Part shown: in pieces, positions 3,648 to 32,706 of the stretch
Position numbering within the stretch: position 1 is the first letter of the stretch
Layout of the letters: each line of letters starts with the position of its first letter
From: Campylobacterales bacterium
Lineage (GTDB): Bacteria; Campylobacterota; Campylobacteria; Campylobacterales; Sulfurimonadaceae
Reading direction: 5' to 3'
DNA length: 34,980 bases
NCBI GenBank assembly: GCA_016938595.1
Contig: JAFGUJ010000014.1
Span: 1-34,980 of the forward strand
The notes under the pieces: generated by a model
What the model saw: the letters and a program-made list of their open reading frames with translations, nothing else
What the model was told of the DNA's origin: nothing
The model's database searches: none
Position numbers and translations under genes: made by a program

Positions 3648-3772
3648 TCCTTTTATTTTGTTTTATACGCCGACGGAGCAAAGCCCCGTTCGGCTACGCT
3701 AACGCTGAGTTTTCTTCAGCAGAAAGCTCACGCGCGGCACGCCGCATATTTATCTATCATCATCGGTTTTAA

Positions 3773-19596: not shown

Positions 19597-21825
19597 GTGA
19601 AAAAAGCTGTTTTGTTTTTTATCATCTCACTCACCTTTGCATTCCAGAGCTGGGGCGCCTGTTCAAACACGTACGGGCAGGTTTTTATCAACGAGACAAA
19701 TACCAAAGACAATTTCATTGAAATCTATGTTTTGGATACCGCTCCAACAGGAAGCTACACTGTCAAAGCGTGTATTTCAGACACCGACTGTTCTACTGCG
19801 ACCTACCTCGTCAACGGTACCTCATCATGGTACGTCAAAAATTTCAACCTGATCAGCAACCGCTCTGAATTTGACATCACGTTGTACGGTCCGGACGAAA
19901 ATGTGGCCGATTACATCCGGATCGGCGATCCTCCCACAACCTATAACACCGATTACCAAAACTGTCCTTCGATCCTTTCGAAACTCAACACATCCGCCCA
20001 TACCTACCATCGGACCAACAGCGGACAGCGCGATTTTTACCGCTCTCCGGACGGATCTTCGACCTGGCAGGAGAGCAATTGGCAGGACGATACCAAAGGT
20101 TCATCCAATACCGGCGACATGCCCCCTCCCCCCGAATGCACCTCGTTTGCCTACGACCTCTACCACACCGCTGATCCCTACCGCCTCCAGACCCGCCTCT
20201 CCTCACACCCCTTCGACGTGAACGTCACCGTCGCCTGCACCGGCACCGGTACCATTCCCTCCCGAAAAATTGTAAACCTCTACGGCTTCAGCGGCGACTG
20301 TCCGGCCGACATTGCAGGGCTGCCCATGGTGTGGAGCGGGGCGGCGGACATCAACGACACCGTCCGCACCATCACGCTGAGCGGGCTCAACAGTCCGAAG
20401 GCCTATTCGAACCTCAGGCTGATGCTCGAAACCGACACAGGGGAGCTACACTGCTCCTCCGACCATTTTTCCCTTCGGCCTTCGACCTTTGCCATCGTTT
20501 CCCCGGCCTCGCCGATCCGTGCCGGGGAGATCACCGTGCAGGTCTCGGCGACAGAGAGCGACGGCGGGTATGACGGCACCGCGATCGCGACGACGGCCCT
20601 ACAGATTCCCGATCCCGAATGCCCCGTCACAAACGGCTTTTTGGCCATGGGGAGCACCTCCGAACCCCTCTCCCTGGCGTTTGCGAACGATGTTCATACG
20701 TCGGAGATGAACGCGACCGACATCGGGGAGATCGTCCTCAACGTCAAAGACACGGCATGGACGACGGTCGATCAGGCCGGTGACTGCATCCTCGAGAGCA
20801 ATGCGACCATTCCCGATGCACTCGGACGGATCGGATGCAATGTCGAGAACAATCTCTCGCTGAAAATCGTCCCCCACCATTTCGACGTCAATTCCACCCT
20901 TTCCGATTTCGCGGGGGGAACGTTCACCTACCTGAGCCGCGATCTGGCGATGTCAGCCGATATGAACATCAAAATAACGGCCAAAACGTCCGGAGGGAAA
21001 ACAACCCTCAATTACACCGACGGATGCTACGCCAAACCCTCGACCCTCACGCTGCAGCATTCGCAGGTTCCCGATCCCCTCTCCCGAATCCTCTACGATC
21101 TCAACGGCGTGGAGGACAACGTCACCAAAAACGGCGATATGACCCTCAGCCTCGCCGAATCGGTTTTTTCTCAAGGGATTGCGCCGCTGCTGATGCGGCT
21201 CAATTTCGACCGCGACCCGTCCAGGGTCCTCAACCCGTTTGATTTCACGCTCCAGTCGGCCGTCGTCGTCGACAGCGACGCCACCAGCAGCGCCGACGGG
21301 CTAAGCGAGCTTGCAGGGACGGCAACCTATCTCTACGGCAGAGTCCGGGTCTACGACATCGCGACCGATGCCCCCTCCGCCCCCAATCCGGTCGAATTCG
21401 AAATCTACAGCTCGACTCCGGCGGGATTTGTCAGCGGGATGCCCCAGAATACGCTCGGATGGTACCGCAATCTCCACCACGATGCGGCCGCCGAAGGAAA
21501 CGTCATCCGCGGCGGGTTCAGCGCGGGATCCGACGATCCGGACGTCGGCACCTCGGCACTCCCCTCCTACGGCGTCCAGATCGTCACCGTCACCGCCTCC
21601 GAAGACAAAACGGTCCACCTCGACATCGCGCCGTGGCTGTGGTATTCCCGCACCAATAATTACGACTACGCCGCCGGTTGCAACAGCCATCCGTGCTTTC
21701 TCTACGACCATACCGGCACCGCCTCGGGGGTTACAGGGGTCACCAGCGGAATCTACCAAGGGAGCGATTTTGAGATGAAACCGGCCAAAGAGATCACCAA
21801 CAAAGGGGTGAAACTCTTTCGATGA
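19597..21825 (+). CDS. Large exported MshQ-like (DUF6701-like) protein of the type IV pilus cluster
   Basis: 742 aa; signal peptide MKKAVLFFIISLTFAFQSWGAC; N-terminal GQVFINETNTKDNFIEIYVL resembles a lamin-tail (LTD) domain; C-terminal YLYGRVRVYDIATDAPSAPNPVEFEIYSSTPAGF pattern resembles MshQ C-termini; many Cys. Stop overlaps the first pilin start (ATGA). Confidence 0.6.
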   Translation: MKKAVLFFIISLTFAFQSWGACSNTYGQVFINETNTKDNFIEIYVLDTAPTGSYTVKACISDTDCSTATYLVNGTSSWYVKNFNLISNRSEFDITLYGPDENVADYIRIGDPPTTYNTDYQNCPSILSKLNTSAHTYHRTNSGQRDFYRSPDGSSTWQESNWQDDTKGSSNTGDMPPPPECTSFAYDLYHTADPYRLQTRLSSHPFDVNVTVACTGTGTIPSRKIVNLYGFSGDCPADIAGLPMVWSGAADINDTVRTITLSGLNSPKAYSNLRLMLETDTGELHCSSDHFSLRPSTFAIVSPASPIRAGEITVQVSATESDGGYDGTAIATTALQIPDPECPVTNGFLAMGSTSEPLSLAFANDVHTSEMNATDIGEIVLNVKDTAWTTVDQAGDCILESNATIPDALGRIGCNVENNLSLKIVPHHFDVNSTLSDFAGGTFTYLSRDLAMSADMNIKITAKTSGGKTTLNYTDGCYAKPSTLTLQHSQVPDPLSRILYDLNGVEDNVTKNGDMTLSLAESVFSQGIAPLLMRLNFDRDPSRVLNPFDFTLQSAVVVDSDATSSADGLSELAGTATYLYGRVRVYDIATDAPSAPNPVEFEIYSSTPAGFVSGMPQNTLGWYRNLHHDAAAEGNVIRGGFSAGSDDPDVGTSALPSYGVQIVTVTASEDKTVHLDIAPWLWYSRTNNYDYAAGCNSHPCFLYDHTGTASGVTGVTSGIYQGSDFEMKPAKEITNKGVKLFR

Positions 21826-22472
21826 GAAACGGACTGACCCTTATAGAGCTGATCTTGTCGATGATGATCATCGGCGTCGTTTTCACTGTCATCCCCCGTC
21901 TGATCCTCTCGATGAATCAGAGCACTCAGGTGACGATCAAGGAAGAGGCGATGTACAACGCCCTGGCGCAGATCGGGATGATCACAGCTCTCCCCTGGGA
22001 CAACAATAACACCCAAAACAGCCAGATCCTCGGTGTCACCCACGGCGACGGGGCATATGAGTGCAACACGACCAGTGGCTACCGGATCGGCGGATTCGTC
22101 GGGGGGCGCAACTGCATTTCCCCTGCGGGAACCGATTTCAATGCCGGCGTCATCGGGCGCGAAGACGCAGAGTATAACGACATCGACGACTACCACGACA
22201 CCAATATCACCGCCGACAAGAACTGCTCCACGACCGTTAAAAAAGGGCTTTACGTCATGGACACGAGCGTCGCCTACGTCGATGATCCCCAGCCTCTGGG
22301 CAGTGCCGCTTTAAACACGGTTCCCAAAGGAATCGGCGAATCCTCCAACACCAAATACGTCCGGGTACAGGTAAAATACGGAAGCGATGCGCGGCGGCAA
22401 GGGTGCATCACGGCTCTGGAATACCATTCGTTCAATCTCGGCCATATCCAGATCAACAGCAGGAGCTGGTAA
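21822..22472 (+). CDS. Type IV prepilin-like (minor pilin) protein
   Basis: MRNG|LTLIELILSMMIIGVVFTVIP: class III signal with Glu5. Confidence 0.85.
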   Translation: MRNGLTLIELILSMMIIGVVFTVIPRLILSMNQSTQVTIKEEAMYNALAQIGMITALPWDNNNTQNSQILGVTHGDGAYECNTTSGYRIGGFVGGRNCISPAGTDFNAGVIGREDAEYNDIDDYHDTNITADKNCSTTVKKGLYVMDTSVAYVDDPQPLGSAALNTVPKGIGESSNTKYVRVQVKYGSDARRQGCITALEYHSFNLGHIQINSRSW

Positions 22473-23341
22473 TGCGCCGCGGCTACACCCTCATCGAGAT
22501 CATTATCACCGTTGCCATCACCGGAATCCTGTCGGTCGGAATGTTCAAGGCGTTCGAAGCGGTCACGCTTCGAAGCGAAAAAGCCAAAATTCTCACCTCC
22601 CTCTCACTCGATTCGCAAAGCGCTTTGGACCAGATCAGCCTCCTCCTCTACCACCGCGCCCCGATGTCGGTCAGCGGCTACAATCTGGGGGACCCTGCCC
22701 GTATCCCCCTTGACCAGTCGGTCGACAAAACGGTGATCGAATGGATAGGCATTGCTCATGAGAGCTATGCGGCGGGGGATTACAGCACCTTTGTCGATAT
22801 GAACCGATCGCACAGGCCCGTGCTCCACACCCCCCAAACAACCAAAAGCGCCATCGAAGCGACCCAGAACGCCAAATGGGAAAGCTTTACGTGGAACGAT
22901 ATCGCCCTGATTTTTTCGGGAACGTTCGACGAAGGAACCCCCGCGCTCCATCCCATCATGATGAGCGCCGACGAGACCATCACCTTTACCGGCACCGCCC
23001 CGGATACCATCTATGAAAAATACCTTCTCGCCGATTCGGCCTATGCGGTGACGCGGGGAGAGCATATTGACCAGAGCGCCCCGTGCATAGTGGCACTGGG
23101 CCTCACTCCGCAAGTGCTGGACAACGCCCTGCTCCTCTTTTATGACTACCGCCCGTGGAAAGGAGAGACCTTCTGCGCCGACACCCCTAACGGAGGAGGA
23201 AAAGTGGGGATTCTTGCCCTCGATACCAATGCGTTTCGCGCGCGCATGGTTAACCGCACGATCCGTCTTTCGATCGACATGAACCGCAGCGTACGGGGAG
23301 GCAATCCGGTGAAACTCTCCAAACAAAAAGTGGTATTCTGA
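22472..23341 (+). CDS. Type IV prepilin-like (PilW/MshO-like) minor pilin
   Basis: MRRG|YTLIEIIITVAITGILSVGMFKAFEAV; start overlaps the previous stop (TAATG); track start 22403 is upstream. Confidence 0.83.
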   Translation: MRRGYTLIEIIITVAITGILSVGMFKAFEAVTLRSEKAKILTSLSLDSQSALDQISLLLYHRAPMSVSGYNLGDPARIPLDQSVDKTVIEWIGIAHESYAAGDYSTFVDMNRSHRPVLHTPQTTKSAIEATQNAKWESFTWNDIALIFSGTFDEGTPALHPIMMSADETITFTGTAPDTIYEKYLLADSAYAVTRGEHIDQSAPCIVALGLTPQVLDNALLLFYDYRPWKGETFCADTPNGGGKVGILALDTNAFRARMVNRTIRLSIDMNRSVRGGNPVKLSKQKVVF

Positions 23342-23775
23342 TGCGCCCGGCATTCGGTCTTCCCCAGGTTCTCCTCATTATCCTCTTTGTCGGGGGGATC
23401 GTCACCGTCACGATGCGCTACGCCTCGCTGGGGGCTCAGCACTATGCCGACAGCTACACCCGCGAACAGGCCGAGCTGTTTTTGCACAGCGCGACCGAAG
23501 CGGCACTGCTGCGTATCGGCGCATTTGACCGCAGTGGCGGGGAGTGCATGAAAGAACTCACCGTCACCTCATCAGACGGGCGGCTGGAAGCCAATGTCAC
23601 CGTCGAGCGCTATTACCTCGCAGACGGTTCAGCCTGTAGCAATCTCCCCTACACCCCGATCCAGACGGAAGAGTCCCACGGGATGGTGAGCATGCGGGTA
23701 GTGGTCGCCACCCTCTCCCACCCCAAAAACCTCCACCCGATCCGACTTCAACGAAGGAGCCTGCAGCGCCCATGA
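23341..23775 (+). CDS. Pilin-like protein lacking Glu5 (PilX/GspK-like candidate)
   Basis: MRPAFG|LPQVLLIILFVGGIVTVTMRYASLGAQHYADSYTREQAELFLHSATEAALLRI; overlaps both neighbours. Confidence 0.68.
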   Translation: MRPAFGLPQVLLIILFVGGIVTVTMRYASLGAQHYADSYTREQAELFLHSATEAALLRIGAFDRSGGECMKELTVTSSDGRLEANVTVERYYLADGSACSNLPYTPIQTEESHGMVSMRVVVATLSHPKNLHPIRLQRRSLQRP

Positions 23776-24224
23776 TGAAACGTGCTTTTTCCCTGATCGA
23801 ACTGATCTTCGTTATCGTCCTGATGGGGGTACTCACCGGAATCGGATTCTACTACAGCCGCCCTGACTCTACACGCCAGGACGCCCAGTACACCCTCCTC
23901 AAACTCAAAGAGGCCCGCTACCGTGCCATAGGCTATGACGCCGAATCTCCGTCCACTTGTGTCATCCTGACCAAAGAGGCCCTCTCCTCAAACGAACCGC
24001 CCAAACACGAAATCCGCTCTGCCGTATCGGTGATCTATCCTCCGGATCCGGCCCTGGACAGCGTCTGTTTCGATTCCCTCGGACGCCCCCACGGGGGGGA
24101 TTCGACAACCCTCGACACGCTCATGCGAAGCCCCGTCGACATTCTTTTCAAAAATGGTGATAAAAACACCACAATTCGTCTGTATCCGCAAACGGGATAT
24201 GCTATAATCCCTTGCAATAACTAA
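23772..24224 (+). CDS. Type IV prepilin-like protein
   Basis: MMKRA|FSLIELIFVIVLMGVLTGIGFYYS, Ala at -1, Glu5 present. Confidence 0.83.
   Translation: MMKRAFSLIELIFVIVLMGVLTGIGFYYSRPDSTRQDAQYTLLKLKEARYRAIGYDAESPSTCVILTKEALSSNEPPKHEIRSAVSVIYPPDPALDSVCFDSLGRPHGGDSTTLDTLMRSPVDILFKNGDKNTTIRLYPQTGYAIIPCNN
24200..24208 (+). promoter_or_regulatory. Possible internal extended -10 promoter (TGCTATAAT)
   Basis: TGCTATAAT within the 3' end of the last prepilin gene, followed by the only substantial gap (58 nt) inside the cluster. Confidence 0.45.
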
Positions 24225-24282
24225 TGTGTTTTTTTAATATTACCGGAACATAACGACCAAAACCCGTAAACAAAGCAGGCCC

Positions 24283-25725
24283 ATGGAGCATCCGAAATTT
24301 CTTTACATCGAGCATGACCGTCTCCGCGTGTATCACAACGGCGCGTTCCATGAAAACGGCGAAACGAAACTTTGGAGCGGTGCCATCGTCCCCCTCTCCC
24401 TTCTGAATATCCATACCCTCAAACTCCCCGACCATCTCAGCGACGAAGAGCTTGCCATCCAGGTGGAAATCCGGATGTTCGAAGAGGGGAACCTCAGCAG
24501 CGACGAAGAGTACACGATCGATTTCATCCGCCATCCGATGGCGACGGAAAGTTCGGTGCTGGTCGAAGCTTTTGCCCTCTCCCATGCCAAAGCACAGGAG
24601 TATTTCGGCGAATCGCTTGCCAAAACAGGCTCAATCGACCGGATCGTTCCGGGGTTTATGGTGTACGCCGCCCTGTATCCCGCCATCGAAGCCCGAAACG
24701 ACCTCTTTCTCTACTGGGGAGAAGAAGAGGCTTATGCCGCCATCTATCAGGATGGGCGGTACATCGCCCACCGCAGCATCGAAACCCTCACCACGATCGC
24801 CGTGGAAACGGGTCTTGATCTGAACAAACTGAAATTTTTCCTCCACACAAAAGGACTCGTCGAAGAGAACTACTCCAGCGAAGAGCTGAACAAGTACATT
24901 CTCATCCAGGAGCGGATCGCCAAAAACATCGAACGGGTCGTCCATACGATCAACCACAAACGGGGCCTCTTCGGCCTCAGCGGAATCGACCGCTGCTACC
25001 TTGATTTCGAGGGGAAAGCCGTCCCCGGACTGGAAGATATTTTCAAGGCATACGGGATCCCGGGCCTCATCCCCGAGCCTCTGACGCACGAGAGCACCCC
25101 GCCCGATGCCATCCATGACGCGCTGTGTGCCGATTACCTCTCCCAAAACATCCCCTTCAACCTCTCCCCCTATCCGCGCAAAGCCCCCTGGTACGCCAGA
25201 GAAAGCGGAAAATTTTTGGGGATTGTCGGGGGCATGCTCCTCTCTGTCCTCCTTGCCGCTTTTGCCGTTTCGTGGATGCTCGGCAGCGCCCAGGAGCGCA
25301 ACGACGCACTGAACGAAGAGCTGGCTTCCCTGCGGCAGGAGACCGCCTCCCTCTCCGCCACCCTGAAAAAAAACCATGCGGAGCTTAAAGCCCATCAGGC
25401 CGAAGCGGCAGCGCGGCGCGAAGAGATCCTCCTCTACAAAGGGGCGGAAGAGACGGCGGTGCTCATCCGCGACATGCACACGGCCCGACAGCAGTTTCTC
25501 CTCGATACGACCGCCGAACTTGGGCGCTACCGCCTGGGGGCGATGCTGATGGAGCAAAACGGTTCCAAATCGATGAACGTTCACGTGGTTGCGGATGACC
25601 GCAAGCGCGACGACATCGCCAAACTGATGAGCGGCCTGTATGCCAGAGGATATCAGGATGTCCAGACCCACGAGATCACCCTCGACAACGACATGTACAA
25701 CAGTCTGGTAAAGGTGACGCGATGA
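24283..25725 (+). CDS. PilM-PilN-like fusion (MshI-like) inner-membrane assembly protein
   Basis: 480 aa: ~300-aa cytoplasmic domain, one TM (FLGIVGGMLLSVLLAAFAVSWML), coiled coil and PilN-like periplasmic part. Position directly before PilO/PilP-like genes. Confidence 0.65.
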   Translation: MEHPKFLYIEHDRLRVYHNGAFHENGETKLWSGAIVPLSLLNIHTLKLPDHLSDEELAIQVEIRMFEEGNLSSDEEYTIDFIRHPMATESSVLVEAFALSHAKAQEYFGESLAKTGSIDRIVPGFMVYAALYPAIEARNDLFLYWGEEEAYAAIYQDGRYIAHRSIETLTTIAVETGLDLNKLKFFLHTKGLVEENYSSEELNKYILIQERIAKNIERVVHTINHKRGLFGLSGIDRCYLDFEGKAVPGLEDIFKAYGIPGLIPEPLTHESTPPDAIHDALCADYLSQNIPFNLSPYPRKAPWYARESGKFLGIVGGMLLSVLLAAFAVSWMLGSAQERNDALNEELASLRQETASLSATLKKNHAELKAHQAEAAARREEILLYKGAEETAVLIRDMHTARQQFLLDTTAELGRYRLGAMLMEQNGSKSMNVHVVADDRKRDDIAKLMSGLYARGYQDVQTHEITLDNDMYNSLVKVTR

Positions 25726-26351
25726 GCGAATTAGAGACACAGCTCGACACGATCGACGAACAGCTTTTGACCTACGGACCGGCACAGCGCTGGCTCATCT
25801 ACATCGGAAGCGCGGCGGGAATACTCCTGATGGGATGGATGTTCTACCTCTCGGATGCCCTCGCGGAGCTCTCCGAGCTTGAAGAACAGAACCAGGCTCT
25901 GGTTCAGCAGATCGGCGAAAACTCCCCCGAAGCCTACCGATCCAAAATCTCCCAGACGGCCGCAGCGATTGCCCGGGAAAAATCTCGCGCCGATGCCCTG
26001 GACAATGAAAAACAGGCTCTTTTGGCGGAAATGAGCGCCCGCAGCGGACTGGTATTCAACAACCGCACCTACGCACAGATGCTGCAGAGGCTGCTGGAGC
26101 GTTCAGTACGGCTGGGGCTCAAAATCGAACAGATGGAATCCGAAGACACCGCCAAACCCTTCTTCGGCAAAATCATCCAGTACAAAAAACTGACCGTCAC
26201 CGGAACAGGAAACTACCCCGCCATCGCCGATTTTCTGACATTTGTCGAAGAGCAAAACACCCTCGTACAGATCGATACGGTTCAGATCCGTTCCGACGAG
26301 GAAAAACCCCGTTTCGAAGCGGTCATCTTCTACATGGGGGTAGCGCTGTGA
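25722..26351 (+). CDS. PilO/MshJ-like pilus assembly protein
   Basis: 209 aa; short cytoplasmic N-terminus, one TM (WLIYIGSAAGILLMGWMFYLS), coiled coil, ferredoxin-like C-terminal segment (KLTVTGTGNYPAIADFLTFVEEQNTLVQIDTVQI). Confidence 0.75.
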   Translation: MSELETQLDTIDEQLLTYGPAQRWLIYIGSAAGILLMGWMFYLSDALAELSELEEQNQALVQQIGENSPEAYRSKISQTAAAIAREKSRADALDNEKQALLAEMSARSGLVFNNRTYAQMLQRLLERSVRLGLKIEQMESEDTAKPFFGKIIQYKKLTVTGTGNYPAIADFLTFVEEQNTLVQIDTVQIRSDEEKPRFEAVIFYMGVAL

Positions 26352-26692
26352 ACAAACTCGTTTTTTGGATCGCCCTCTTCCTCGCCGCGTTCCCTCATCT
26401 GCAGGCGCAGATGTACGATCCGTTTCGCAAAACCGCAAAACCCTCATCGGCACCCCATCTGATGCCGCCTCCCCCGATGATGGCCCCCTCGGTCCCCCCC
26501 ACCGTCGTCAGCGCCGTGATGAACGGCAAAGCCTACATCAACGGCGCATGGTACCGGGTCGGAGACCGCATCAACCAGCACGAAATCACCTATATAGATA
26601 AACATTTTGTCGGCCTCAAAGAGGGGAACCGGCTCAAAATGATCGGCGTCGGCTCCAGCCGCCGTGTACTTGGCACAAAGGACGTTCCATGA
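26348..26692 (+). CDS. PilP/MshK/CtsR-like periplasmic pilus assembly protein
   Basis: 114 aa; signal peptide, Pro-rich linker, C-terminal VVSAVMNGKAYINGAWYRVGDRINQHEITYIDKHFVGLKEGNRLKMI (PilP/GspC HR-like). Confidence 0.68.
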   Translation: MNKLVFWIALFLAAFPHLQAQMYDPFRKTAKPSSAPHLMPPPPMMAPSVPPTVVSAVMNGKAYINGAWYRVGDRINQHEITYIDKHFVGLKEGNRLKMIGVGSSRRVLGTKDVP

Positions 26693-28197
26693 AAAAACTG
26701 CTATTAGCTTCTTTGCTGATAACCAACCTGATGTATGCACAAGAGTGCGATACCAAACGCTTCAGCCTCAGCGCCTACCAGCACCGCGGTTCCGCCCTCA
26801 CCCTGATGGATCTGGTGCGCGACGTAGCGCAAACCTGCCAGATCAGCGTCGTCTTCGAAGACGCCCGTTCCAGAGAGCAGCTCTCGCAGCCGCTGGATAT
26901 GGTGAATATCCAGGATTACTCCCTCCCTGAGCTTTTTACTTTTATCTTTGACGAACACAACCTTTTTTATACGTATGACCCCTCCAAAAAAATGGTCCGG
27001 GTCTCCTACACGAAAACCGTCAATTTCAATGTCGACTACATCAACATGTCCGAGCTGGTCACCGAATCGACCAAATCGATCACCGTGGGGCCCAGCACCA
27101 ACACCGGTGTCTCCGCATCGGGCACGACGGGAAGCGGCTCGACGACGACAGGAACCTCTTCCGGCACTTCTTCCTCTTCGGGAGCCAACAGCGACTACAC
27201 GAATGTCCGTGCCATCTCCACTTTCACCTTCTGGGATCAGCTCCAAAACCACATCGAGCAGATTCTGCAGGTGGATGAAGCCTACAACGAAACGCTCCAC
27301 AAAACCCTCGTCAACCGCGATGCGGCCGTCGTGACCCTCACCGGGACGAAGCGCCAGATCGACGGGGTCAAGCGCTACCTCGACAAACTCGAAGCGCGGA
27401 TGCATTCGCAGGTGATGCTCGAAGCCCATCTGATCGAACTCACCTACAACGACTACCGCTCGATCGGGGTCAACTGGAGCAACTTTTCGCTCGCCCTCGC
27501 AGGGCAGTATTCCAACGCCTACACGAACATCGCCGGGACCGCCAACCCCGTCTACAAATTCGGGATCGACTTCAACCCCGCCGGCCTCATCGATTTTCTC
27601 AAAACCTACGGGAATGTCGAGATCCTCTCGAATCCGAAAGTGCTGACCCTGAGCAACCAGCCCGCCGTCATCAACGTCGGACAGCAGCTGAGCTACCTCT
27701 ACCAAAACGGCAGCATCATCGGCACCACCACGACCCCCACCACCGTCACCAACACCCTGGGTTCCGTCTTCGTGGGGCTTACCCTCAACATCATCCCCGA
27801 AGTTACGGAAGACGGCTACATCATCATGCGGATCAACCCGATCACGAGCGAACTCCTCAACGAGTCGGAATTGAACCCCTCCAGCGTGGGTTCGGGAACC
27901 ACGACGAACCAGACCGAGCGGACAATGCCGCCTGATACACGGGTCAAACAGATGACCTCGATCGTCAAGGTCAAAGATTCCCAAAAGGTCCTTATCGGCG
28001 GGCTGATCGAGAAAAAAATCTCCCGGGACAATACGAAAGTTCCGTTCGTCGGAGACATCCCCCTGCTGGGACGGCTGTTCAACAACGACACCGATACGAC
28101 CCGCAAAAGCGAACTTTTCATCCTGATCACCCCGACGCTCGTCAAGCAGGATGTGTTTCCGACTATCGACGATGCGATCCTGAAACGGTTTGACTGA
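26689..28197 (+). CDS. mshL: Outer-membrane secretin (PilQ/MshL/CtsD-like)
   Basis: Secretin core: VMLEAHLIELTYNDYRSIGVNW, VEILSNPKVLTLSNQPAVINVGQQLSYL, VKDSQKVLIGGLIEKKISRDNTKVPFVGDIPLLGRLFNNDTDTTRKSELFILITPTLV. Confidence 0.92.
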   Translation: MKKLLLASLLITNLMYAQECDTKRFSLSAYQHRGSALTLMDLVRDVAQTCQISVVFEDARSREQLSQPLDMVNIQDYSLPELFTFIFDEHNLFYTYDPSKKMVRVSYTKTVNFNVDYINMSELVTESTKSITVGPSTNTGVSASGTTGSGSTTTGTSSGTSSSSGANSDYTNVRAISTFTFWDQLQNHIEQILQVDEAYNETLHKTLVNRDAAVVTLTGTKRQIDGVKRYLDKLEARMHSQVMLEAHLIELTYNDYRSIGVNWSNFSLALAGQYSNAYTNIAGTANPVYKFGIDFNPAGLIDFLKTYGNVEILSNPKVLTLSNQPAVINVGQQLSYLYQNGSIIGTTTTPTTVTNTLGSVFVGLTLNIIPEVTEDGYIIMRINPITSELLNESELNPSSVGSGTTTNQTERTMPPDTRVKQMTSIVKVKDSQKVLIGGLIEKKISRDNTKVPFVGDIPLLGRLFNNDTDTTRKSELFILITPTLVKQDVFPTIDDAILKRFD

Positions 28198-28198
28198 G

Positions 28199-28993
28199 AT
28201 GTCACGATGGCTTGAAGCAGCGGCGCGTTTCGAAGAGCGGCGCGACAGCAGGGACTATTTCGAAATCCAAAGCGCACTGGGAGCGACGCAGAGGATCCAG
28301 ACCCTTCTGGAAAATACGTTCCGGCAGCTCATTTTTCTGATCGGCGAACCCGGCAGCGGAAAAAGTTTTTTGCTCCACCATCTTCACGCCTTGTGGCAGG
28401 AGGAGCGCGACATTCTCCTGATCGAAACACCGTTCATGACGCCGCTCGATCTGCTCAAAAAACTCCTCGCCCACAAAGGGATCGAGGCGCCGGGAGAGGA
28501 CATTGAACAGCTTCGCCTTACTGCGACGGAGCTTTACGGTTCCTGCGAGCACCTCATCATGATCGACGAAGCGCAGCTGCTGAGTCCGGAGATGAAAGAG
28601 TTCATCCGCATCCTGAGCGATTCCAAGGCGTTCTGGTTTATCCTCGCGATGCACCGCAGCGAGGGGGAAGCGATTTTACGGGCCCCCCATTTCAAAAGCC
28701 GCCCCCACCGGATCATCGAACTCTCACCCCTCACCCCCGTAGAGTGCAAAAACTACGTCCACAAAGAGCTGATCCGGATCGGCTTTTCCGAAATCACCGA
28801 CGAACTGAGTCCCAGGCTGATTGCAAAAGCCCACCGGATCAGCCAGGGAAATTTCCGCAATTTCAAAAAAATTTTTTACCACCTGTTCCACCTGCTGCAC
28901 TACACCAACAGCCACAACAAAACCAAATATCTGCGTCCCTCCTCCTGTACCCTCACGATGGCCGCGATGAGTGCGGAGCTCCTCCATGATTGA
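28199..28993 (+). CDS. ExeA/MshM/CtsP-like AAA ATPase
   Basis: Walker A IGEPGSGKSFLL, Walker B LIMIDEAQLLSPEMKEF, start at ATG 28199 just after the secretin stop. Confidence 0.82.
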   Translation: MSRWLEAAARFEERRDSRDYFEIQSALGATQRIQTLLENTFRQLIFLIGEPGSGKSFLLHHLHALWQEERDILLIETPFMTPLDLLKKLLAHKGIEAPGEDIEQLRLTATELYGSCEHLIMIDEAQLLSPEMKEFIRILSDSKAFWFILAMHRSEGEAILRAPHFKSRPHRIIELSPLTPVECKNYVHKELIRIGFSEITDELSPRLIAKAHRISQGNFRNFKKIFYHLFHLLHYTNSHNKTKYLRPSSCTLTMAAMSAELLHD

Positions 28994-29690
28994 TAATTTC
29001 GACCGTCTGGTACAGCGCTGCGCCCTCCGGCGACGACGGCAGATGATCCGTCTCTCTTTGATGATCGTCGCCACGATCCTGATGGTCATCGCCTCCGTTT
29101 CGGGATATCAGATGTGGCTGACTTCCCAAAAAACCGCCGATGCCGTCCGAACGCCTTCCAAGGCGCACATCGCCCTCAATTCCCCTGCAGTTGGGCCCGA
29201 ACCGACCGAATCCAATACAACCCGTCCGAGCGTGGAGCTGGCCCCTGCCGAGGCACCCCAAAAACCGCTTTCCCCTAAAAAAGAGGCAGTGTCCGTGCGG
29301 GCAGAACCCGAACCTGCCGCTGCGGCCCAAACGGTTCCAAACCCGAGCGCGCCCCTGCGCGGCGGACCCCTTTTTGACGTGAGCGCCCCTTCCCAAAGCG
29401 CTTCCGCCGATCCTCTCGAAACCTATCAGCGCCGTCCCGGATACGACACGGCCCTGGCAATCGCCCGCGATTTCTACGCCAAAAACAATTTTTCCGAAGC
29501 GGCAGTATGGGCCAAAAAAGCCAATCAGCTCAACCGCGAAGGCGAAGAGGCGTGGCTCCTCTATGCCAAATCCTATTACGCCCAGGGGCGAAAAAACGAA
29601 GCGGTAGGGGTGCTGGAACTCTATCTCAACTACAAAGACTCCCGTACCGCAACGGAACTGCTGCGTACGTGGAAAACATCAGGAGAATAG
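28986..29690 (+). CDS. Single-TM protein with C-terminal TPR-like repeats (MshN-like)
   Basis: TM LSLMIVATILMVIASVSGYQMW, Pro/Ala-rich linker, TALAIARDFYAKNNFSEAAVWAKKANQLNREGEEAWLLYAKSYYAQGRKNEAVGVLELYL. Confidence 0.72.
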   Translation: MIDNFDRLVQRCALRRRRQMIRLSLMIVATILMVIASVSGYQMWLTSQKTADAVRTPSKAHIALNSPAVGPEPTESNTTRPSVELAPAEAPQKPLSPKKEAVSVRAEPEPAAAAQTVPNPSAPLRGGPLFDVSAPSQSASADPLETYQRRPGYDTALAIARDFYAKNNFSEAAVWAKKANQLNREGEEAWLLYAKSYYAQGRKNEAVGVLELYLNYKDSRTATELLRTWKTSGE

Positions 29691-29691
29691 A

Positions 29692-31368
29692 ATGATCCGT
29701 CAACAGGTACGTCTGGGAGATTTACTGATCGAGCAGGGGCTGATTACCCCCGAACAGCTCGACTACGCCCTGAAGCAGCAAAAAGATTCGGGATTCGCCA
29801 AAAAACTGGGGGAAGTGCTCGTTGATGAGGGGATGGTATCGCACAAAGAGATGGCGATGCTGCTGTCCCGACAGCTCAAAATCGATTTTGTCGACCTCTT
29901 CGGCGAAAAAATCGACTTTCATGCACTGGCGAAATTTTCGATCTCGCTCCTCACCGCCGCCAAAGCGATCCCGTTCAAGGAAGACGAGGACTACGTCTAC
30001 ATCGCCACCTCCGACCCCCTCAACTTCGATGCACTGGAAGCGTTGGAACGTAACATCGCCGTCAAACCGATCAAGGTCTACCTCTCGCTGACCGAAGACA
30101 TCAACCACATCTTCCAGCGTCTGGAGATCATCAAAAAGACCCAGACCATCGCCGCAGAGGTAAAAAAAGAGATCAACAACGAAGGGGCCAAAGGGGGCGA
30201 AGGGGAAGCGAGCGCCGTCATGCAGCTCATCTCCCTGATCATCAAAGACGCCATCCTCCGCCGCGCCAGCGACCTGCACATCGAACCCGAACTGCAATCG
30301 ATGTCGGTCCGCACCCGGGTGGATGGGATACTGCAGGAGACGTTCGTTTTCGACCTGGACATCTATACCGCCCTCGCCTCCCGGATCAAACTTCTGGGCA
30401 ACCTTGACATCTCCGAGCGGCGCAAGGCGCAGGATGGGCGCTTCAGCCTCGACATCGCGGGGGGAAAATACGATTTCCGTCTCTCCACCACCCCGACGCT
30501 GTTTGGCGAATCGATCGTCATGCGGATTCTGGACCAGCAGAAAATCCTCCTCAAACTCCATGAGCTCGGTTTCGAAGACCGCAACTTAGAGCTCTTCAAC
30601 GAGATCATCCACGCCCCCTTCGGGATCGTCCTCATCACGGGTCCCACCGGAAGCGGTAAAACGACGACCCTCTATGCCGCCTTGAACGAGGTCAAAAGCA
30701 TCGAGAACAAGGTCCTCACCATCGAAGACCCGATCGAGTACCAGCTCCCCCTCGTGCAACAGGTGCAGGTGAACGAGCGGGTCGGGTTCAGCTTCCTCGA
30801 AGCGCTCCGGTCGTTTCTTCGCCAGGACCCGGACATCATCCTTGTCGGGGAGATCCGCGACTTCGAGACCCTCAACTCGGCCGCGCAGGCGTCCCTGACG
30901 GGGCACCTCGTCTTCTCGACGCTCCACACCAACGACGCCCCCAGCGCGATCGGGCGGATGGTGCAGATGGGACTGCAGCCCTATCTGATCGCCGATTCGC
31001 TGGTCGGGATCGTCGCCCAGCGCCTTGTGCGCAAAATCTGTCCCGAGTGCAAATACGAAATCAAGCCGCACAAAAACCTCCTGCGCAAAGTTGAGCGGTG
31101 GATCACGGACGAAACGAAATTTTATGCGGGCAAAGGATGCCCCAAATGCAGCAATACCGGATACTCGGGGCGGATTTTGATCTCGGAAATCCTCGTCGTC
31201 AACGAAACAATCGCAAAAATGATCAGCGACGAGTCCTCCAAATACGACATCGCCCGCTACGCGCAACAAAACGAGGGGTTCGAACCGATGATCATCGACG
31301 GCCTCTCCAAAGTTCTGCGCGGGATCACCACTCTTGATGAAGTTCTTCGCGTGACCAAGGAGATCTAG
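29692..31368 (+). CDS. mshE: Type IV pilus/T2SS assembly ATPase with N-terminal MshEN domain (MshE/CtsE-like)
   Basis: MshEN motifs; Walker A GPTGSGKTTTLYAAL; Walker B ILVGEIRDFETL; CPEC...CPKC zinc site. Confidence 0.94.
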   Translation: MIRQQVRLGDLLIEQGLITPEQLDYALKQQKDSGFAKKLGEVLVDEGMVSHKEMAMLLSRQLKIDFVDLFGEKIDFHALAKFSISLLTAAKAIPFKEDEDYVYIATSDPLNFDALEALERNIAVKPIKVYLSLTEDINHIFQRLEIIKKTQTIAAEVKKEINNEGAKGGEGEASAVMQLISLIIKDAILRRASDLHIEPELQSMSVRTRVDGILQETFVFDLDIYTALASRIKLLGNLDISERRKAQDGRFSLDIAGGKYDFRLSTTPTLFGESIVMRILDQQKILLKLHELGFEDRNLELFNEIIHAPFGIVLITGPTGSGKTTTLYAALNEVKSIENKVLTIEDPIEYQLPLVQQVQVNERVGFSFLEALRSFLRQDPDIILVGEIRDFETLNSAAQASLTGHLVFSTLHTNDAPSAIGRMVQMGLQPYLIADSLVGIVAQRLVRKICPECKYEIKPHKNLLRKVERWITDETKFYAGKGCPKCSNTGYSGRILISEILVVNETIAKMISDESSKYDIARYAQQNEGFEPMIIDGLSKVLRGITTLDEVLRVTKEI

Positions 31369-32607
31369 GTGAAATTCTACCGGGTCCGCTACAAACGGGG
31401 GAAACAGAGATTGTCGCTCACCCTCGAAGCCGCGCACAAAGCCGAGGCCCTCAAACGTTTCCGGGACAAAGCACTCGGCGTTCCGCTGGAGGTCAAAGAG
31501 GTCTCCGAATCGTGGGGGATGAAATTCGAGCGGCTTCAACAGCGGTTCAGCAATCCGATCAAAAACCGCCGGGTCAAGGACGAACCCTATATCACCTTCC
31601 TCGATCAGCTCGCCACGATGCTCGATGCGGGGATGCCGATCAACACCTGTCTGGCTGAGAGCATCAGCGACACCCAGGACCCAATGCTTCGGGCGATCTT
31701 CACCGAAGTGCTCCGCGATATCGAGAGCGGCCAGAGCCTGAGCCGCTCCGTGATCGGATACCAGCGCCAATTGGGAACCCTCTCCCTCTCCATGTTTGAA
31801 CTGGGCGAGCAGACGGGAACGCTGAGCACCGCCATCGCCAAACTCTCCGCGATTCTGCAGCAGATTTTCGACAACCGCCAGAAACTCAAAAAAGCGACCC
31901 GCTATCCCCTCTTCATCCTCGTCGCGATGGGGATCGCCTTCACAGTCGTCATCACCTTCGTCGTCCCGCAGTTCCAGAGCTTTTTCGAAGAATCGGGGAT
32001 GCAGCTGCCCTTCCCCACCAAACTGCTGCTGTGGACCGAACACGCCATCAGCACCTACGGCCCCTATATCCTCGCAGGGGCGATTTTCCTCTCGGTCGCC
32101 TTCAGTTTTGCCTACGCCAGAAATCCCGCTTTGCGGCTCGCAACGGACCGCTATTTTCTGAAAATCTACATCGTCGGCAAAGTCACCTATTACGCGATGA
32201 TCGGCCGTTTCATCTATCTGTTCAACGTCCTTACCGATGCGGGGATCCCGATGATCGATGCGCTGGAGATCGCCATGGGGGTTGTCGACAACCACTACAT
32301 GAAACAGGAACTCAAAAAAATCCCCGTAGCGATCGAAGACGGCCGTTCACTGGCGCAGGGGTTTTCCGAGAGCGGACAGTTCGAGGGGATGGTCATGCAG
32401 ATGATCAAAGCCGGAGAGAGCAGCGGATCGCTGGGGACGATGCTCGGGAAAGTGAATCGGGTGTATAATAACCGCTACGATTACATCGTCGACAACGTCG
32501 CCACACTGATCGAACCGATCCTCATCGCCGCCATCGCGGGGTTTGTCCTCGTTCTGGCGCTGGGGATCTTTTTGCCGATGTGGTCGATGGTCGACATAGC
32601 AGGATAA
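31369..32607 (+). CDS. mshG: Inner-membrane platform protein, GspF/PilC/MshG/CtsF family
   Basis: FLDQLATMLDAGMPINTCL, LGEQTGTLSTAIAKLSAILQQ, IKAGESSGSLGTMLGKV, three TM segments; GTG start. Confidence 0.92.
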   Translation: MKFYRVRYKRGKQRLSLTLEAAHKAEALKRFRDKALGVPLEVKEVSESWGMKFERLQQRFSNPIKNRRVKDEPYITFLDQLATMLDAGMPINTCLAESISDTQDPMLRAIFTEVLRDIESGQSLSRSVIGYQRQLGTLSLSMFELGEQTGTLSTAIAKLSAILQQIFDNRQKLKKATRYPLFILVAMGIAFTVVITFVVPQFQSFFEESGMQLPFPTKLLLWTEHAISTYGPYILAGAIFLSVAFSFAYARNPALRLATDRYFLKIYIVGKVTYYAMIGRFIYLFNVLTDAGIPMIDALEIAMGVVDNHYMKQELKKIPVAIEDGRSLAQGFSESGQFEGMVMQMIKAGESSGSLGTMLGKVNRVYNNRYDYIVDNVATLIEPILIAAIAGFVLVLALGIFLPMWSMVDIAG

Positions 32608-32610
32608 GGG

Positions 32611-32706
32611 ATGGAACTTGAAACCGGAACGATCACCGTCGCTGTCGTGAGTACCCTGATCCTCGCATTCGGGCTCTGGATCATTCACAAAATCACGAAC
32701 ATTTAG
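32611..32706 (+). CDS. 31-aa single-TM small protein (not in supplied ORF track)
   Basis: ATG..TAG reads MELETGTITVAVVSTLILAFGLWIIHKITNI*, 3 nt after the mshG-like stop, one hydrophobic helix. Partly overlaps the convergent DedA stop (32693). Confidence 0.5.
   Translation: MELETGTITVAVVSTLILAFGLWIIHKITNI

Follow-up and report, generated by a model that had tools for sequence, protein, structure and literature searches.

A predicted MSHA-type pilus cluster in a Campylobacterales genome and its near-universal sister system

We analysed a window of 34,980 nucleotides, contig C164 of a 216-contig metagenome-assembled genome (MAG; 89% complete) of a Campylobacterales bacterium (GCA_016938595.1, JAFGUJ010000014.1), which harbours a type IV pilus-like gene cluster. 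An earlier reading of the letters alone, hereafter the original prediction, had assigned the window to a Campylobacterota-like genome, and the closest named relatives of the secretin, from Sulfuricurvum MAGs (64-82% identity), agree with this and place the bacterium in Sulfuricurvum, a genus of sulfur oxidisers. The cluster comprises 14 genes, all on the + strand, that span positions 19597-32706; the co-oriented array had been correctly delimited but counted as thirteen open reading frames (ORFs), and the tiny last ORF makes 14. As predicted, nearly all neighbours overlap or abut (ATGA, TGATG and TAG-GTG types of junction), and the sole visible gap inside the cluster, from 24224 to 24283, measures 58 bp. 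None of the 14 ORFs is disrupted. The gene order is Q-D-O-P-C-I-J-K-L-M-N-E-G followed by a 31-residue membrane protein, the D, O, P and C assignments being of decreasing certainty. The features are the following:

19597..21825, + strand: MshQ-like exported protein of 742 residues; signal peptide, DUF6701 match at 50.3 bits (cut-off 27)
21822..22472, + strand: minor pilin, MshD counterpart, 216 residues; class III leader
22472..23341, + strand: minor pilin, probable MshO counterpart, 289 residues; class III leader at 24.9 bits
23341..23775, + strand: MshP-like minor component, 144 residues; named from its position, conserved in all loci of System A (defined below)
23772..24224, + strand: minor pilin, probable MshC counterpart, 150 residues; class III leader
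24283..25725, + strand: MshI-like PilM-PilN fusion, 480 residues; AlphaFold2 model with Foldseek matches, C-terminal profile match
25722..26351, + strand: MshJ/PilO-like protein, 209 residues; Aeromonas MshJ match over 158 columns (E 5e-5), weak PilO/T2SSM_b matches
26348..26692, + strand: MshK/PilP-like periplasmic protein, 114 residues; Aeromonas MshK matched with the family profile at E 9e-7
26689..28197, + strand: MshL-type secretin, 502 residues; Secretin 141.8 bits, Secretin_N_2 27.1 bits
28190..28993, + strand: MshM/ExeA-type AAA ATPase; AAA_22 67 bits, profile matches Aeromonas MshM (E 1.5e-10)
28971..29690, + strand: MshN-like TPR protein with one transmembrane segment; TPR_19 26 bits, position
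29692..31368, + strand: MshE extension ATPase, 558 residues, with two intact cyclic di-GMP (c-di-GMP) motifs; T2SSE 418 bits, MshEN 50.7 bits
31369..32607, + strand: MshG platform protein, 412 residues; T2SSF 170.9 bits, two domains
32611..32706, + strand: conserved 31-residue microprotein with a single transmembrane segment, in the MshF position; AGGA ribosome site, conservation

Profile searches thus found DUF6701, prepilin leaders, Secretin, AAA_22, TPR, MshEN with T2SSE, and T2SSF among the products, and the DUF6701 score bears out the MshQ-like exported protein of the original prediction. In that protein the N-terminal ~150 residues are lineage-specific, and a Pfam search with this unique N-terminus gave no domain. 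The conserved C-terminal part (approximately residues 175-742, ~565 residues) matches the C-terminal ends of homologues of 845-1699 residues, at 46-54% in the closest Sulfuricurvum proteins and down to 21% across families. The N-termini of these homologues differ from one another and often carry lectin-like Laminin_G_3 domains. The AlphaFold2 model of the window protein is mostly beta (mean pLDDT 66.8), and a fold search of the PDB with it returned just generic multi-domain beta-sandwich matches, which are uninformative. A constant C-terminus with interchangeable N-termini is the pattern expected of an adhesin, which would be located at the tip.

Four pilin-like proteins had been called downstream of mshQ, and three of them have the canonical class III leader above the TIGR02532 cut-off. 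The fourth, encoded at 23341-23775, showed neither such a leader nor a family match in searches with family profiles and TIGR02532. Profile-profile comparison matched the 216-residue protein with Aeromonas MshD over its full length (96.7% probability, E 3.7e-10), and the 150-residue protein with Aeromonas MshC over 120 columns (93.6% probability), a match partly driven by the leader. The start of the MshO counterpart is set at ATG 22472, with a longer ORF possible from 22403.

No family profile matched the 480-residue MshI-like protein above its cut-off. In its AlphaFold2 model (pLDDT 88.7), a PilM-like part is followed by a long helix that spans residues 307-415 and by an alpha/beta domain at the C-terminus, and its top Foldseek match is Pseudomonas aeruginosa PilM (5eou, E 1.4e-12). 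Since the C-terminal part also matches the MshI2/PilN-like protein of the Aeromonas MSHA operon (profile-profile, E 7.7e-5), we read this protein as a PilM-PilN fusion, in line with the PilMN-like protein of the original prediction. The start codon is TTG 28190 or ATG 28199 for mshM, and GTG 28971 or ATG 28986 for mshN. Where present in related loci, mshN always sits between M and E (or X-E).

The ATPase is homologous to Vibrio cholerae MshE (5htl, E 2.4e-12), which binds c-di-GMP via two 24-residue motifs (PMC5013675). Using a relaxed score of 11 positions per motif, we found 11 of 11 in each motif of the window protein, which also reaches 65.3 bits on the c-di-GMP motif model NF053729 of NCBIfam (cut-off 38). 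This model matched 7 of 13 members tested.

Type II secretion systems (T2SS) have a secretin, ATPase and platform in common with type IV pili, and the GspE and GspF models do match strongly. An exporter of proteins, the MshQ-like protein for instance, is nevertheless a remote prospect, as the equivalog scores fall far under the curated cut-offs (GspE, 509.9 of 630; GspD, 146.5 of 351; GspF, 243 of 424 bits), on which we rejected a T2SS identity. The best of all secretin models is instead that of MshL (TIGR02519), with 233.7 bits for the window protein, ~16 bits under its equivalog cut-off of 250.2, and in relatives the partner filament gene codes for an MshA-like pilin, not for GspG.

The Aeromonas caviae operon (L121, NZ_AP026896.1) served as the MSHA reference. 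Family profiles of the cluster recover the K, L, M, E and G components of this operon, and profile-profile comparison adds D, J, part of I and, less firmly, C. This gene content accords with the MSHA-like features (MshEN, MshQ, MshM/N) originally remarked on. The reference record, 4.94 Mb long, is filed as a plasmid but is evidently a chromosome, and an ORF inserted in the mshQ region may break up the msh locus there.

The absence of PilT, a prepilin peptidase and an obvious major pilin from the window was confirmed. Elsewhere in the genome we detected two PilT-family ATPases (contigs C163 and C68, with 449 and 430 bits against a cut-off of 319) and a Peptidase_A24 protein, a prepilin peptidase (contig C135). 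As regards the major pilin, an MshA-like profile scored 157-187 bits in four Sulfuricurvum genomes, G051, G037, G172 and G173, all of which have the same system as the window; the genomes G014 and G029, without it, gave just weak pilins. The MshA-like gene lies just upstream of mshQ in G173 and G037, and 36-38 kb from the system, beside glnA and pckA, in G051 and G172.

Together, these data make a type IV pilus of the MSHA type, used for surface attachment, the likely product of the cluster. Several points weigh against this. No MshA-like gene is present in the 89%-complete assembly, the window MshQ is devoid of the lectin-like domain of its relatives, the identities of MshO and MshP rest on position only, the secretin misses the MshL cut-off, and both the pilus and its phenotype are predicted here from the genes. 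The structural genes Q-D-O-P-C also stand upstream of the assembly genes, whereas those of the Vibrio and Aeromonas operons come after them and are ordered differently.

The missing pilin, with an MshQ of 742 residues vs 845-1699 in most Sulfuricurvum relatives, might also mean that the system is non-functional in this host. We regard such decay as very unlikely. The MshA/glnA/pckA segment of the relatives is missing as a block from the MAG, and contig C143 begins just before it, so that mshA and the gene of its partner pilin probably fall in an assembly gap; the completeness of the system is accordingly deduced from relatives. The position of the sister system described below is likewise in a gap, with C170 ending and C19 breaking off at its flanks. 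These gaps at both positions, the intact ORFs and the purifying selection on the microprotein across the genus disfavour a pseudogene reading.

The last ORF, predicted as a tiny transmembrane protein, is real. It is found in 21 loci of five families, always directly 3' of mshG, and comparisons with other Sulfuricurvum copies gave pN/pS ratios (non-synonymous to synonymous) of 0.06-0.16 at pS values of 0.49-0.70, showing purifying selection across the genus. A sequence link with MshF was looked for and none was shown; the two have position alone in common. In the Sulfuricurvum MAG LH_M14 (L036, 12956-15900), an apparent frameshift splits mshE, and the microprotein is shortened, through sequencing error or decay.

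To place the cluster, ~70 locus neighbourhoods were annotated with profiles built from this analysis. The same order recurs in ~20 independent loci from six Campylobacterales families, and the arrangement is therefore not due to chance. These loci form what we call System A, Q-D-O-P-C-I-J-K-L-M-N-(X)-E-G-microprotein (families f1, f4, f7, f16, f18 and f20), usually adjoined by MshA-like and partner pilins. A second type, System B, is composed of I-J-K-L-M-N-X-E-G without Q or the pilin block, and is often located beside era-hslUV-rplI. System B is near-universal in Campylobacterota, being found in nearly every family, and many genomes carry both. In an MshE tree (quick search, SH-aLRT support, no bootstrap), System A forms one clade (19 rows, SH-aLRT 99) and System B the other (32 rows, 88); the two join with a support of 98, leaving the Aeromonas and Legionella MshE proteins outside. 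The grouping was the same once several long branches were removed. The secretin tree does not separate A and B cleanly (two label changes), and the split consequently rests mainly on MshE and gene content. The System A profile gives the best scores for the System B secretins of family f16, which may reflect sharing or conversion between the two machines. Four System B loci of that family (L097, L099, L100 and L119) stop at N, and E and G genes are missing from their surroundings.

Both c-di-GMP motifs are present in all 19 System A ATPases (9-11 of 11 positions) and were lost in 31 of the 32 of System B, the one with both, L110, being a basal branch. The simplest reading is that the sensor was lost along the System B lineage. 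Two kinds of locus were set aside as different T2SS/T4P (type IV pilus)-like systems: a third distinct Campylobacterota secretin-ATPase-platform locus (L070 and L093, genomes G053 and G144), with partly degenerate c-di-GMP motifs and a position outside the A and B clades, and a cluster on the Aliarcobacter cryaerophilus plasmid pACRY43158 (L122) with a GspG-type pseudopilin, platform, secretin and GspE-type ATPase.

The original prediction had also seen a resemblance to the Cts competence genes of Campylobacter jejuni, and suggested an adhesion/DNA-uptake hybrid. Family f11 was identified as Campylobacter by synteny. In its locus L101 (28% GC, 1.47-Mb contig), the order is rplM-rpsI-CadF-like-HAD-1184-residue por/NifJ-type protein-R-D-...-E-F, then flagellar genes, and this cadF/por neighbourhood is that of cts in C. 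jejuni. The ctsD gene of C. jejuni is cj1474c (PMC10046745). By content L101 is of the System B type, lacking Q and the pilin block. Its exact place in the tree is unsettled because its ATPase is a very long branch; two further f11 loci, L103 and L108, are firmly inside clade B, and L103 retains the era-hslUV-rplI neighbourhood. The putative Cts secretin of L101 reaches 270.8 bits on TIGR02519, above the cut-off, as do the System B secretins tested (259-271 bits), and Cts itself therefore appears to be MSH-derived. System B is apparently the DNA-uptake machine of Campylobacter. Orthology of the cluster to ctsR-D-P-X-E-F was considered and discarded, since L103 and L108 belong to System B.

Could the window cluster itself be a Cts-type competence machine, or serve both purposes? 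Some type IV pili do both adhesion and DNA uptake, the cluster has its core order K-L-M-N-E-G in common with loci of the Cts type, and the secretin of the putative Campylobacter Cts scores as MshL. We nonetheless consider this improbable. The conserved era-hslUV-rplI neighbourhood is occupied by a separate sister system, which lacks MshQ and the pilin block and to which the Campylobacter locus belongs; only System A generally retains the c-di-GMP motifs, and its distribution is patchy, that of System B near-universal. The hybrid was rejected because this separate locus fits Cts, and the gene content of the cluster matches MSHA, not a mixture. The Cts-like order that had been noticed is real, but it belongs to System B and is explained by common ancestry, System B being the sister in the MshE tree and including Cts.

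At a threshold of 1e-110, an A-type MshG is present in 59 of the 299 Campylobacterales genomes (nine families), and System A is an accessory module. It sits between murG and leuA in the window, G051 and G173; in the Sulfuricurvum genomes G014, G057 and G029 murG is directly followed by leuA with a gap of ~100 bp, a clean empty site, and in G045 ~1 kb separates them. In two Sulfurimonadaceae genomes System A groups with family f18 and System B does not, which suggests horizontal exchange.

In Campylobacterota, an MSHA-type, c-di-GMP-controlled pilus machine may have duplicated ancestrally, System A staying an accessory adhesive pilus with MshQ and System B losing the sensor and the adhesin/minor-pilin block to become the near-universal Cts. 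The microprotein would be a new conserved part of the System A machine. For these two proposals taken jointly, we see the case as evenly balanced.

For the MSHA-type pilus, we infer the following mechanism from the sequences. MshE and MshG would extend a filament of the MshA-like pilin through the MshL secretin, with MshI, MshJ and MshK forming an inner-membrane/periplasmic alignment complex and MshM and MshN in a putative accessory role. Filament initiation would fall to the minor pilins D, O, P and C, which probably also bear MshQ, a variable candidate tip adhesin rich in beta structure. Binding of c-di-GMP to the N-terminus of MshE would turn extension on, and the PilT and peptidase encoded elsewhere would retract the pilus and cleave the prepilins, respectively. 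In V. cholerae, extension of the pilus is driven by c-di-GMP bound to MshE, and its retraction is the work of PilT (PMC7096442).

These comparisons offer a rule for look-alike Campylobacterota loci: MshQ, the pilin block, the c-di-GMP motif and the microprotein point to an adhesive pilus, and the absence of all four to a competence-type machine. They also place Campylobacter Cts in the MSH family, making its origin testable, and the presence or absence of System A at murG-leuA provides natural pairs for studying an MSHA-type attachment role in free-living sulfur oxidisers.

Elsewhere in the window, a dispersed intergenic repeat of ~80 bp (3661-3746) contains CCCCGTTCGGCTACGCTAACGCTGAG, and several further contigs of the genome bear similar copies. 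Relatives have another repeat family of similar length near priA/ispG.

With the Vibrio and Aeromonas MSHA systems the cluster shares the I, J, K, L, M, N, E, G, D, C, P/O-like and Q components, A/B-like pilins (here in relatives), an MshE with a double c-di-GMP motif, and a peptidase and PilT encoded outside the locus. In V. cholerae, an mshI-F operon is followed by mshB-Q (PMC4624765). Unlike those systems, the cluster joins PilM and PilN into a single protein and has a 31-residue microprotein where the larger MshF stands, and its relatives have MshA and the partner pilin at varied sites. Campylobacter Cts (CtsR-D-P-X-E-F) has a homologous secretin, ATPase and platform in the same relative core order, but is of the System B type: MshQ and the D/O/P/C block are missing, and its ATPase has no c-di-GMP motif. 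MSH systems, as a rule single-locus and peptidase-less, have already been predicted in Epsilonproteobacteria with a model that makes mshE, mshG, mshL and mshM mandatory in one locus (Denise 2019, PMC6668835), and homologues of all four are in the cluster, according to family, equivalog and Aeromonas-matched profiles. The loci of that study are very probably the same as, or overlap with, those described here; in the passages cited, it does not separate two loci and mentions neither the sensor loss nor the microprotein. Searches of the open-access subset of the literature turned up no description of the A/B pairing, nor any of the microprotein. In view of the earlier prediction, the cluster is a Campylobacterota variant of a known machine and its value is mainly comparative; what is new is the A/B pairing with its apparent sensor loss, and the conserved 31-residue protein in the MshF slot.

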